Source: Candidatus Coproplasma stercoravium | Lineage (GTDB): Bacteria > Bacillota > Clostridia > Christensenellales > Borkfalkiaceae | Assembly: GCA_018713165.1 (NCBI GenBank) | Contig: DVFR01000021.1 | Location: 1 to 64,000, forward strand | Length of the DNA stretch: 64,000 bases | Direction of reading: 5' to 3' | In this document: one piece after another, positions 2,469 to 30,916 of the stretch | How the letters are laid out: each line of letters begins with the position of its first letter | Numbering within the stretch: the first letter of the stretch is position 1 | Notes under the pieces: generated by a model | The model's database searches: none | What the model saw: only the letters and a program-made list of their open reading frames with translations | Told to the model about the DNA's origin: nothing | Program-made: the position numbers and the translations under genes

Positions 2469-3380
2469 TCACTCGCGGGCAAGAAGGTTCAATACAGTTT
2501 CAGCCGTCGCCCGTTCGGGAGGAAGGTTTATAATGTTTGGTAATTTTTTAAAAAAAGTTATCTGTCTTTTAGCGTATCTGCGCGTATTTTGCTTGATTGT
2601 GTCACGCATAGTACTTTGCGAATCACTATTTTTTAAGCCTGCGATAACCTCTTTGTACCCGATAGCCTGCATACATTGGCAATTTTCACCGATTCCGCGC
2701 GCAAGGAGCGACTTCACTTCGTCTACGAGCCCCGCCTCAAACATTTTGTCGACGCGGGCGTTTATGCGCGCATAAAGCTCCTCCCTCGGAAAATCTATCG
2801 CGACCGCGAGATAATCAAATCTCGGCGTCAAATCGTCGCAGATGTCCGACTTCTTTCTCCCGCCCGCCTCATAAATTTCAAGCGCGCGGATAACTCTCTT
2901 CAAATCGTTGGGGTGAAGTTTTGCCGCAGTTTCGCCGTCTGCTTCCTTTAAAACTCCGTAAACGTATTCCCTGCCTCTCTCTTTGGCAAGTTTTTCGTAC
3001 TTTTCGCGGATTTCGCTGTTTGCGGCGACGCCGCCGTAACTGAAATCGAAGAGCAGAGAATTTATATAAAACCCCGTTCCGCCGCATATCACGGGCGTTT
3101 TACCCTCATTCAGCAGTTTTTCAACTATCGGCAGAGCCGCATTTTTATAATCGGAAACGCTGTATTCGCAGGTCGGCTCGGCTACGTCAATCATATAATG
3201 CGGAACGCCGAGCTTTTCTTCACCTGTCGGCTTTGCCGTGCCGATATCCAACCCCTTATACACGAGCTGGGAATCAGCGGAAATTACCGCACTCCCGAGT
3301 TTTTTTGCGCACTCTGCGGCGAGCGCCGTTTTTCCCGTCGCCGTAGCGCCGCATATTACAAGTACCCTGCCCACGCTCAC
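2469..3380 (-). CDS. miaA: tRNA dimethylallyltransferase
   Basis: CGATATGKTALAAECAKKLGSAVISADSQLVYKGLDIGTAKPT; VPHYMIDV. Confidence 0.96.
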   Translation of the reverse strand: MSVGRVLVICGATATGKTALAAECAKKLGSAVISADSQLVYKGLDIGTAKPTGEEKLGVPHYMIDVAEPTCEYSVSDYKNAALPIVEKLLNEGKTPVICGGTGFYINSLLFDFSYGGVAANSEIREKYEKLAKERGREYVYGVLKEADGETAAKLHPNDLKRVIRALEIYEAGGRKKSDICDDLTPRFDYLAVAIDFPREELYARINARVDKMFEAGLVDEVKSLLARGIGENCQCMQAIGYKEVIAGLKNSDSQSTMRDTIKQNTRRYAKRQITFFKKLPNIINLPPERATAETVLNLLARE

Positions 3381-24270: not shown

Positions 24271-25203
24271 TTATACGAGCGAGAACGTTTCGTCGAGCCC
24301 GAGCATTATGTTCATGTTCTGCACGGCCGCGCCCGAGGCGCCCTTGCCGAGATTATCGAACACGCTGCACATGAGTATCATATTGTTGTTGCCGCTTACG
24401 TAAATTTTTAAAAGATTGGTACCCGCCAGCTCATTTGCAGGCAAATACGCGGGAATTTCCTCTTTTTTTGCCACTTTTACGAAATTCTGCGACGCATAGT
24501 ACTCTGCAAAGTAGTTTCTTATGTCGTCTGCACCCATTTTTTTGAGCAACAGGCTTTTGTAAAGCGGAACGGTTACGCACATTCCGCAATAGAAGTCACC
24601 CACAATGGGATTAAAAATCGGGGCGTGTTCAAGCGCGCATTCCTTTACCATTTCAGGCAGGTGCTTGTGTGAAAGCGAAAGCGAATACTGCCTCGGGGAA
24701 GATAAGAGCACGCTCCTGCCCTCCGCCTCATATTCCGCTATCATCTTTTTGCCGCCGCCCGAATAGCCCGTTACAGAATGTGCGGTGAGAGGATAGCCCG
24801 CGCCGAGAATTCCCCCTTTCACGAGCGGCGCGACGAGCGTTATAAAGCCGGTGGCGTGGCAACCGGGATTTGCAACGCGCGGAGAGCGGGCAATCGCCTC
24901 TCTCCTCTCCGCCGAAAGTTCGGGAAGCCCGTACACCCAGCCGTCCGCCGTGCGGTGGGCCGTCGACGTGTCAATCACGCGCACCGACGGGTTCTCTATC
25001 AGAGAAACCGACTCTCTCGCCGCCGCGTCGGGCAGGCATAGAAAACAGATATCGGCGGCGTTCAGCCGTTCCTTTCTCGCAGAAACGTCTTTGCGAAGCT
25101 CTTCGGGAATGGTTATAAGGTTTATGTCGCCGCGCTTTGCAAGCCTCTCATAAATCTGGAGCCCCGTCGTGCCCTCGCGGCCATCTATAAATACGTTAAA
25201 CAT
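24271..25203 (-). CDS. argC: N-acetyl-gamma-glutamyl-phosphate reductase (short type)
   Basis: MFNVFIDGREGTTGLQIYERL; VANPGCHATGFI; AHSVTGYSGGGK. Start set at internal ATG 25203. Confidence 0.93.
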   Translation of the reverse strand: MFNVFIDGREGTTGLQIYERLAKRGDINLITIPEELRKDVSARKERLNAADICFLCLPDAAARESVSLIENPSVRVIDTSTAHRTADGWVYGLPELSAERREAIARSPRVANPGCHATGFITLVAPLVKGGILGAGYPLTAHSVTGYSGGGKKMIAEYEAEGRSVLLSSPRQYSLSLSHKHLPEMVKECALEHAPIFNPIVGDFYCGMCVTVPLYKSLLLKKMGADDIRNYFAEYYASQNFVKVAKKEEIPAYLPANELAGTNLLKIYVSGNNNMILMCSVFDNLGKGASGAAVQNMNIMLGLDETFSLV

Positions 25204-27580: not shown

Positions 27581-28309
27581 TTATATTCTTCTGAACTCAA
27601 CCTTAATTCTTACGCGCGCCTCGTCGCCGACTCTGCCCTCAATGAGTGAAACGTCGCCGTCGTCGGCACGGAAAAATTCAAGTTTTTCGCCGTATTTGCA
27701 CTGCTTTACGTATGTAATCAGAACGTTTTTAACGCTCCTTGTGCCGAGCTCGTCGACGCTGAACGTATCGAGGCACAAATCGGCGTATTTGGTGTTGTTT
27801 ACGTGGAAATAATGGTCGTAATCGGAGGCCGAAACGATTTTTTCGTACTTCTTTTCGCCCACTTTCAGCGGCGCAATGCGCCACGAGTTATAGTCGATTG
27901 CGCGGAAATCGTTATATTCGCGCGTGTCACCCTCGAAAAACGCGCTCGTCGGGAGAATGGCAAAAGTCTTCAGGTCGACCATGCACCAGCGGGTCGTCGC
28001 AACGCACACTTTTTCATCCCCGGAATACACTTCAAACTCCCTTAAAAAGATGGTGTTTTTCGGCTTGATGGGCCACGTGTGCACCGTGAGCTTTTCTTTA
28101 AGTTTAATAGGACGGTAAATTTCTATGTACCAGTTTGCGAGAATGAAACCTATGCCTCTCGGGGCTATGTCGTCATAGCCGAAGCCGAGTTCGTCGGCAG
28201 AAAGACAGGCCGACTCTTCGAGCACCGACATGAGCGACGAGAGTTTGAGCTCGTCTTTGAAATCCACGTCGGTATAACGGATATCGTAATCCCTTATATT
28301 CCTGTACAT
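27581..28309 (-). CDS. Acyl-ACP thioesterase
   Basis: IRYTDVDFKDELKLSSLMSVLEESACLSADELG; LTVHTWPIKPKNTIFLREFEVY; SDYDHYFHVNNTKYADL. Confidence 0.85.
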   Translation of the reverse strand: MYRNIRDYDIRYTDVDFKDELKLSSLMSVLEESACLSADELGFGYDDIAPRGIGFILANWYIEIYRPIKLKEKLTVHTWPIKPKNTIFLREFEVYSGDEKVCVATTRWCMVDLKTFAILPTSAFFEGDTREYNDFRAIDYNSWRIAPLKVGEKKYEKIVSASDYDHYFHVNNTKYADLCLDTFSVDELGTRSVKNVLITYVKQCKYGEKLEFFRADDGDVSLIEGRVGDEARVRIKVEFRRI

Positions 28310-28511
28310 TTTTCAACTCCTGAACAAAAAACATCGCAGCGCAGCAGGCTCATACCCGCTTGCACAGCGATATAATTATATCACGGCGCAAAAAAAATGT
28401 CTAACGAATGACGGCCCAAAAATACAGGCAAAAAATACAGGCAAAAAATACGGCAAATTGCCCGAGTCCGTCAATTATGTTTGACATAGTACTATAAATA
28501 TTACCAAACTA

Positions 28512-28552
28512 TTGACATTCAGCCGCAATTTATGTTATAATTTTTATAACAT
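28512..28552 (+). promoter_or_regulatory. Promoter with operator-like inverted repeat over the -10 of the PadR gene
   Basis: TTGACA (28512) -18 nt- TATAAT (28536); perfect inverted repeat ATGTTATAA-TTT-TTATAACAT at 28532-28552. Confidence 0.75.
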
Positions 28553-28566
28553 ACGGGAGAAATACC

Positions 28567-30423
28567 ATGGATAACAACACCGAAGAATTTGAAGGCGGTC
28601 AGGGCAAGAGCTCGATAAGCGCCGACCTCATACGCGGACACATAAACACCATCATTCTCCGCTCGCTGTACGATAGAGACAAGTACGGCTACGAGATAAT
28701 CAATGAAATAAACGAAAAGAGCCACGGGCAGTACACGCTTAAGCAGCCCACGCTTTACAGCGCCCTTAAAAGGCTGGAAAACCAGGGCTATATTCAGGCT
28801 TATTGGAAGAACGACGAAGTTTCGGCGGGCGGCAGACGAAAATATTTCCGCCTCACCGAAAGCGGGCGCGAAATAACCGAGCATAACCAGGCAGAATGGG
28901 AATATTCGAGGACTGTCATCGATAATCTCATCTCAGACCGCAACTTCGACTTCAACCAGCCCGCCCCCACGCCCGTCGACTTCAAAATTCTGAAACAGGC
29001 GACTTCGCGCGTACCCGTAATTCACGGCGAGGACGGCGAAGAACAAAAAGAAGAAAAACCCGACAAGACGGATGAGACAGGAATGCCCTCGGTTGAGGCA
29101 CGCACCTACACCGTATCGGAAGACGTTCAGACAATATATATCGACGACCCCACAAAGAAACCCGAGGAAAAACCTGCGGAAGAAAAAAAGGTCGACGATA
29201 CCCCCGCCGTCACTTATACCGCCGAAACGGAAAAGCCGCTTACATACTCCGAACAGCTCTTTGAAAGCGGAATGACCGCGAGCGCGCAGCCAGCAAGCGG
29301 CAATGCCGACACTGCGCCCGCGACACAGGAGCCTGCGCCGACGCAGGTACAGGAACCCGTGCAGCAGCCTAATCCGCAGGTTATGAATAACAGCGAGCCT
29401 GCGCACGAATACATTGCACAGCCCGCCGAAACGCAGCAGACGACTTACAGCGAGCACACGGAAAGTTATAACGAAAGCTACGACGTCCGCCGCGGGGAAC
29501 ATGCGGGTCAGCAAGACAATTATGCACGGCAAAGCCCCTACTCCGACGAAGAAATTGACGCCGAGAGAGCGAGATACACTTCACAACTCGGCCGCTCGGC
29601 CGAAGAAGAGAGCCGCAGACGCGCACACGAAAACTACCTCAAGCTCATCTCTGGCGACGACGATAAAAAGCGCAGCAAGCCAGAGGATACCGAGCAGAAT
29701 ACCGACAGACTTATTTATAACGCGCGCCCCGAACAGGAACGCGACTACAAGAATCTGATAGATAAACTCTTCGACAGTACTCTCAAAAATACCGAACCTG
29801 CGCCCGTACAGCAACCTGTTTACGCACAGCCACAGCCGCAGGTTACGCCCCAGCCAGCCGAACCCGTATTTGAACAGGTGCAGGCGCCCGCGCAGGAAGA
29901 ACAGGTAAGACATCCGGTGAGATACGGCGGCTATCTCGACGCAAGCAAAAAAGCGGCTTCCGACGGACTTAAAATAAGCACGTCCGACGAAGCTTTCGCC
30001 GCAGGCGCGGCACGGCAGACGACGTATAACAAGGGCGCAACGCTCTTTAAGTGCTCGCTGATTATCGGCGTGATAATGCTGTTGGAATTTACGCTCACAC
30101 TCCTGTTTATGGACGAGCTGAACGTTTCGATAGCCTACCCCATCATCATACTTGCGCTCGGCGTTGCAACCGTGCTCGTATGCGGAATACTCTTCGGCGC
30201 GCGCTACGGCAACCATATTCGCAAGCCGACGAGCCTCAGATACGTCTCAACGGCGTGCATTATAACCGTTCTTCTGATTATCATAATATTCATCTTTGCG
30301 TTTATTTTAAGTACCGACTGGTCGTCGACTACCGAAGTGCTCTCGCACGTGGTTATACCATGCATAATAGCGTTGAATATTCCGATATTCACTTTAAGCT
30401 TTTATCTGTTTACCAAAAATTAA
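28567..30423 (+). CDS. PadR-family transcriptional regulator with long disordered linker and C-terminal multi-pass membrane domain
   Basis: N-term GHINTIILRSLYDRDKYGYEIINEINEKSHGQYTLKQPTLYSALKRLENQGYI; P/Q/E-rich linker; four hydrophobic segments from CSLIIGVIMLLEFTLTLLF to IIALNIPIFTLSFYLF. Confidence 0.88.
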   Translation: MDNNTEEFEGGQGKSSISADLIRGHINTIILRSLYDRDKYGYEIINEINEKSHGQYTLKQPTLYSALKRLENQGYIQAYWKNDEVSAGGRRKYFRLTESGREITEHNQAEWEYSRTVIDNLISDRNFDFNQPAPTPVDFKILKQATSRVPVIHGEDGEEQKEEKPDKTDETGMPSVEARTYTVSEDVQTIYIDDPTKKPEEKPAEEKKVDDTPAVTYTAETEKPLTYSEQLFESGMTASAQPASGNADTAPATQEPAPTQVQEPVQQPNPQVMNNSEPAHEYIAQPAETQQTTYSEHTESYNESYDVRRGEHAGQQDNYARQSPYSDEEIDAERARYTSQLGRSAEEESRRRAHENYLKLISGDDDKKRSKPEDTEQNTDRLIYNARPEQERDYKNLIDKLFDSTLKNTEPAPVQQPVYAQPQPQVTPQPAEPVFEQVQAPAQEEQVRHPVRYGGYLDASKKAASDGLKISTSDEAFAAGAARQTTYNKGATLFKCSLIIGVIMLLEFTLTLLFMDELNVSIAYPIIILALGVATVLVCGILFGARYGNHIRKPTSLRYVSTACIITVLLIIIIFIFAFILSTDWSSTTEVLSHVVIPCIIALNIPIFTLSFYLFTKN

Positions 30424-30439
30424 AATAACGGAGCGCGCA

Positions 30440-30916
30440 ATGAAACTTCTTGCAGTAGTAAGGTCAACTCATATGGGAAACACGATGCAGATAGCCGAGG
30501 CTATGGCGGAAGTTGCTCCCCTCACCATCGCCGATTTCGACGACATTGGGAAATACAATCTGTCGCAGTACGACGCCGTCGGGTTCGGCGGCGGAATAAA
30601 TGCGGGCAGCCACGACCCGAAACTTATAAAGTTCGTCGAAAAGCTCCCCGCCGCACCTAAGTATTCGTTTGTATTCTCCACGAGCGCCACGGGCAAATAC
30701 CAAAAATATAACAAAAAACTTATCTCCCTGCTCGAACAAAAGGGCAGCAAAGTTTTGGGCTCGTTCGGTTGCAAAGGCCTGTGCAAGTTCTTTATATTCG
30801 CGCTTGCGGGCGGCATAAACAAGGGCAGACCAAACATAGACGACTTCGACGCGGCGCAGAGCTTTATCGAAGATGTGATGAAAGACCTCGAAAAAGAAAA
30901 ATCGGCAAACAAATAA
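30440..30916 (+). CDS. Flavodoxin family protein
   Basis: LLAVVRSTHMGNTMQIAEAMAEV; YDAVGFGGGINAG; SFGCKGLCKF. Confidence 0.82.
   Translation: MKLLAVVRSTHMGNTMQIAEAMAEVAPLTIADFDDIGKYNLSQYDAVGFGGGINAGSHDPKLIKFVEKLPAAPKYSFVFSTSATGKYQKYNKKLISLLEQKGSKVLGSFGCKGLCKFFIFALAGGINKGRPNIDDFDAAQSFIEDVMKDLEKEKSANK

Follow-up and report, generated by a model that had tools for sequence, protein, structure and literature searches.

Inspection of the window (the whole stretch of 64,000 nucleotides that was analysed) revealed an uninterrupted reading frame on the + strand, running from an ATG at 28567 to a stop at 30423 and preceded by an RBS-like GGGAG, which encodes a 618-aa protein composed of a PadR head, a disordered linker and a four-TM domain and is referred to here as padR-TM. 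The PadR winged-helix domain (aa 30-102; 28654..28872, +) matched the Pfam family PF03551 with E=2.1e-18 and 66.5 bits against a curated cut-off of 27, and it was the sole family above cut-off in the Pfam scan of the protein, in which neither a MatP family nor an FtsK ATPase motor was detected. The AF2 model of the head is that of an ordinary PadR, with 9qbc as its best match in the PDB (E 1.7e-10) and with LmrR entries also matched. PadR proteins are usually small and soluble, a trait that is not strictly defining and that padR-TM, with 618 aa and four TM helices, does not share.

The linker (aa 146-490; 29002..30036, +) has 345 aa, of which P/E/Q/T/S/A make up 54% and ILVFWM 13%. The initial annotation had described it as a P/Q/E/T-rich, disordered stretch without globular character; the composition agrees with the disorder, while the featureless part of that description has to be amended, as two short motifs are conserved, namely the patch ESRRRAHENYLKLIS (aa 348-362; 29608..29652, +), kept in homologues at the level of the genus, and the motif ERDYKNLIDKLF (29737..29772, +), conserved across the order and centred on Tyr394, which is at least 90% conserved there while the rest of the linker is variable. 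The Tyr-centred motif, YKNLIDKLF (29737-29772), is perhaps a partner-binding helix.

Kyte-Doolittle analysis and AlphaFold both place four transmembrane helices on the + strand at the end of the gene, TM1 (aa 496-514; 30052..30108), TM2 (aa 526-544; 30142..30198), TM3 (aa 563-581; 30253..30309) and TM4 (aa 595-613; 30349..30405), with the C-terminus five residues past TM4 and pLDDT values of about 88-98 over the helices. The charged residues of the loops predict an N-in/C-in topology and, thus, a cytoplasmic DNA-binding head. The membrane-tethered PadR proposed in the initial annotation is upheld, its insertion in the membrane being predicted. No PDB structure matched the fold of the four-TM domain (best E 2.1), and in Pfam this domain gave weak leads to DUF1129 and DUF6773.

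The PadR, linker and TM architecture was detected in nearly all genomes of the window's genus, and three-part homologues are present in the families f3, f6, f8, f10, f14, f16, f18, f19, f20, f24, f29 and f32 of the order, all genomes compared being draft or metagenome-derived. Among the relatives in this order of the Clostridia, Candidatus Coproplasma is the nearest named one and Borkfalkia is more distant. Reduced f28 genomes (0.9-1.1 Mb) retain long reading frames matching the membrane domain, for which nothing convincing was found outside the order among 245 genomes of the class. The intact frame and the retention of the membrane part, both among members of the genus and in roughly a dozen families besides, exclude an artefact of gene fusion or frameshift, which had been considered when the architecture was first noted. 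Judging from these sequence comparisons, padR-TM has long been part of the core gene set of the order and is no oddity of one genome.

The neighbours of padR-TM are housekeeping genes (lexA, mutS/mutL, miaA, RNase HI, proC, rny, recA and cinA), whose names, lexA excepted, were assigned by eye from sequence. Directly 3' of padR-TM lies a flavodoxin-domain gene (30440-30916, +; Pfam Flavodoxin_5, E 1.2e-12), and an acyl-ACP thioesterase gene (27581-28309, -) is divergent from padR-TM genus-wide and at some f18 and f32 loci; co-regulation with the latter was considered and rejected, since this neighbour is conserved merely in f1 and at a few other loci. Regarding gene orientation, padR-TM lies at a convergence of gene strands in 14 of 26 loci and at a divergence in none of the 26. 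At 19 loci one neighbour of padR-TM is a tyrosine recombinase, about 356 aa long, for which XerS ranks first in NCBIfam (E 9.5e-51), yet this match is under the cut-off of the XerS model itself.

Upstream of padR-TM, a promoter of the form TTGACA-N18-TATAAT was read from the sequence (28512..28541, +) and is conserved in homologues. A perfect 10-bp inverted repeat, TATGTTATAA-TTT-TTATAACATA (28531..28553, +), spans the -10 box and was absent from the homologues compared. Just 5' of the -35 element, at a distance of 19 bp, lies the conserved box TATGYNNNRCATAGTAC (28476-28492), read on the + strand as the site TATGTTTGACATAGTAC (28476..28492), a perfect copy of which is found within 500 nt upstream in 61 of 78 related padR-TM loci, while a site is also present at the padR-TM gene in f19. 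Its conservation at the gene's own promoter suggests autoregulation, and a ter site likewise lies in the promoters of tus and rtp (PMC10331603).

The box is not confined to the padR-TM locus. At one mismatch or fewer, the window's own genome has 26 occurrences and three relatives have 13-18 each, the reversed pattern giving 0 and 0-1, respectively; the site pattern was widened once (YNNNR) after inspection of the own-genome matches, and genomes of the sister genus have 13-24 matches each. Genomes of f19 have 19-37 copies of the form TACTAT-N7-ATAGTA against 0-7, and this form was not enriched in 18 genomes that are reduced or come from a family or genus lacking a long padR-TM. The f19-type palindrome was not clearly enriched in f3, f6, f14 and f18 either, so that the system either relies on another site in these families or does not extend to the whole order. 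Within the window, two further sites with one mismatch (2598..2614 and 24486..24502, both +) have the same orientation as the site at 28476.

These data also bear on whether another protein reads the sites, their overlap with the padR-TM promoter arising merely from the position of this gene near the terminus. The genome G020 (97% complete, about 300 contigs) would fit such a reader, as it keeps five sites and padR-TM was not detected in it. However, the site is fixed shortly 5' of the promoter in most f1 homologues and is present at the f19 gene, its ATGT/ACAT arms are those of LmrR operators, albeit with a shorter spacer, and sites and padR-TM are absent together from several families and from G066, which belongs to the same family as the window and yielded no PadR and 0 sites of the f1 form. 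We therefore regard a different reader as highly improbable.

For mapping of the terminus, three long contigs of same-genus relatives and the f19 genome G146 were used, giving four contigs from two families. On each of the three same-genus contigs, both the GC skew and the prevailing strand of the genes reverse at a single point that coincides with the maximum of the cumulative skew, and this point was thus taken as the terminus. The sites are concentrated around it, with 13/17, 12/15 and 11/13 lying within 150 kb (p 2e-7 to 1e-6), a dispersed and terminus-restricted distribution of the kind known from MatP/matS. Their orientation flips at the terminus for 36 of the 40 sites on these contigs (p=9e-8), including 15/15 intergenic and 21/25 coding sites, strand and coding status being based on mechanical ORF calls. 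In G146 the asymmetric variant sites flip in the same manner (14/16), so that over both families 50 of 56 sites are polar (p 5e-10). As the sites had been defined from the padR-TM promoter before the terminus was mapped, clustering and polarity constitute independent tests. In the window, the sites at 2598, 24486 and 28476 are all on the + strand, opposite to the leading strand, as predicted, while a crude first test by local 3-kb gene strand across the whole of that genome gave 17/26, which is not significant. Mutational strand bias was rejected as a source of the polarity, because in the weak half of the f19 site an A stands in place of G on the very strand where the skew would tend to preserve G. 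A site TATATSTGGCATAGTAC within a gene of about 180 aa (G175:C1:646920, G177:C1:256016 and others) is found again in many genomes and forms a recurrent exception to the polarity.

The placement of the sites also bears on the role first proposed for padR-TM, that of a membrane-tethered transcription regulator that senses the state of the envelope or a lipophilic ligand or whose head is released by proteolysis. The PadR head, the four TM helices and the conserved site at its own promoter, with the autoregulation that it suggests, are what such a regulator would have. Its sites would be expected mainly at regulated promoters, whereas 25 of the 40 predicted sites on the three mapped contigs lie in predicted coding sequence and the intergenic ones are often placed after terminators or between genes. 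Inference of a regulon from the genes downstream of the sites was ruled out for the same reason, no conserved regulon was seen, and nothing was found to suggest that padR-TM senses envelope stress or a ligand or that proteolysis frees its head, the sites being dispersed, often intragenic, clustered at the terminus and oriented around dif. A tethered regulator in this sense is very unlikely; sensing and repression are probably not the main role of padR-TM, which is probably no ordinary gene switch. The recurrence of the promoter box at dispersed, terminus-oriented sites points instead to terminus organisation, autoregulation being of secondary importance.

Regarding chromosome dimer resolution, motif search around the XerS-like genes revealed a candidate dif, ACTATTCGYAAAA-N6-TTTTRCGAATAGT. 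On the four mapped contigs, the fourth being G146:C2, it lies at 264129, 592341, 280097 and 184392, against skew maxima at 264000, 595664, 280000 and 185000. In f6, f8, f10, f16, f19, f24 and f32 the candidate dif is 0.15-8 kb from the padR-TM start, and in many families padR-TM adjoins both an XerS-like gene and a candidate dif. The candidate dif with its 6-bp centre stands beside a single XerS-like recombinase in several families (L043, L056, L039, L055 and others). An xerS gene next to its own dif site is also known from Streptococcus and Lactococcus (PMC5357621). No description of such a dif/XerS-like module was found in the literature for this order.

Polar, dif-centred sites are also a feature of FtsK/KOPS, a comparison to which the Xer/dif linkage adds, and the parts of padR-TM resemble an FtsK without its motor, with a membrane domain, a Q/P-rich linker and a DNA-reading domain; the linker of FtsK is unstructured and rich in Q/P, and KOPS increase towards dif on the leading strand (PMC5357621). 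The sites might, by way of padR-TM, orient or load FtsK/SpoIIIE towards dif. We consider this quite improbable, since padR-TM is devoid of a motor domain, has the reverse domain order, and its sites are 17-21 bp long, low in copy number and confined to the terminus, whereas KOPS are 8-mers found genome-wide.

A replication fork trap, in which a bound PadR dimer would stop forks that have passed the terminus in the manner of RTP in Bacillus, with the membrane anchor as a secondary feature, accounts for the polarity of the sites around dif. PadR dimers share topology and dimer organisation with the winged-helix dimer of RTP (PMC3506622), which speaks for a fork trap, and both systems have a site in the promoter of the gene itself. 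Known fork traps number just two unrelated proteins, distributed over four clades (PMC6549158). However, RTP is a soluble protein of 122 aa that belongs to a different Pfam family, PF02334, which was absent above cut-off in 21 genomes, the B. subtilis control being positive. The RTP profile match was weak (E 0.079), and no RTP chain was among the best 60 matches listed in the PDB profile search with padR-TM. In both families, TACTAT, the strong half, is the first to be encountered by a fork heading for the terminus, and with RTP it is the forks meeting the strong B site first that are blocked; the strong half thus faces the approaching fork from the side that RTP blocks, and the RTP analogy does not map simply. 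As the membrane domain would moreover be superfluous for a trap, we regard this explanation as unlikely.

On balance, we consider it probable that padR-TM binds the terminus while anchored in the membrane and so tethers or organises the end of the chromosome, a role that would draw together its computed architecture and conservation, the enrichment, clustering and polarity of the sites and the dif/Xer linkage. A PadR dimer would bind about 15-25 asymmetric sites per chromosome with the core GTAYTATGYNNNRCATARTAC, which cluster around dif and are oriented relative to it, and the flexible linker of roughly 345 aa together with the 4-TM domain would fasten the terminus DNA to the membrane, presumably close to where the cell divides, so that the terminus could be positioned or organised for segregation and Xer/dif resolution. 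Expression of padR-TM may be autoregulated through the site at its own promoter, as that of tus and rtp through theirs. A pure tether has no need of polar sites, which weakens the tether reading. The wider proposal of a third, independent bacterial terminus system, in which a single integral-membrane PadR would bind polar sites flanking dif and link Xer/dif resolution and the division membrane with either the arrest of forks or the capture of the terminus, is less likely than not. A terminus binder embedded in the membrane and conserved in an order of gut Clostridia would represent a new means by which the envelope and the chromosome ends are coupled, and the predicted sites make terminus binding testable at once.

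In function, padR-TM would probably be comparable to MatP/matS or RTP/Ter and a member of neither. MatP/matS of enterobacteria and Vibrio also combines a protein with about 20 dispersed, terminus-specific sites and links the terminus with the machinery of division. MatP, however, is soluble, acts via ZapB and ZapA and has a fold unlike PadR, and matS is a non-polar palindrome. MatP/ZapB have been described as enteric, while ZapT of Caulobacter shows terminus-biased DNA binding, often within ORFs, and is coupled to the divisome (PMC7188993); a consensus site is unreported for ZapT, for which no relation to padR-TM is known. With the PadR/LmrR regulators, padR-TM has the DNA-binding domain, the fold and the ATGT/ACAT arms in common, whereas those proteins lack its linker and 4-TM domain and its sites are not mainly at promoters. 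Regarding the context of the sites, A/T tracts recur with a phase of about 10.5 bp on both sides, over roughly 90 bp, in 121 distinct contexts from f1 genomes (Fourier power 63; maximum in random windows 1.2), which suggests curved DNA or protein oligomerisation.
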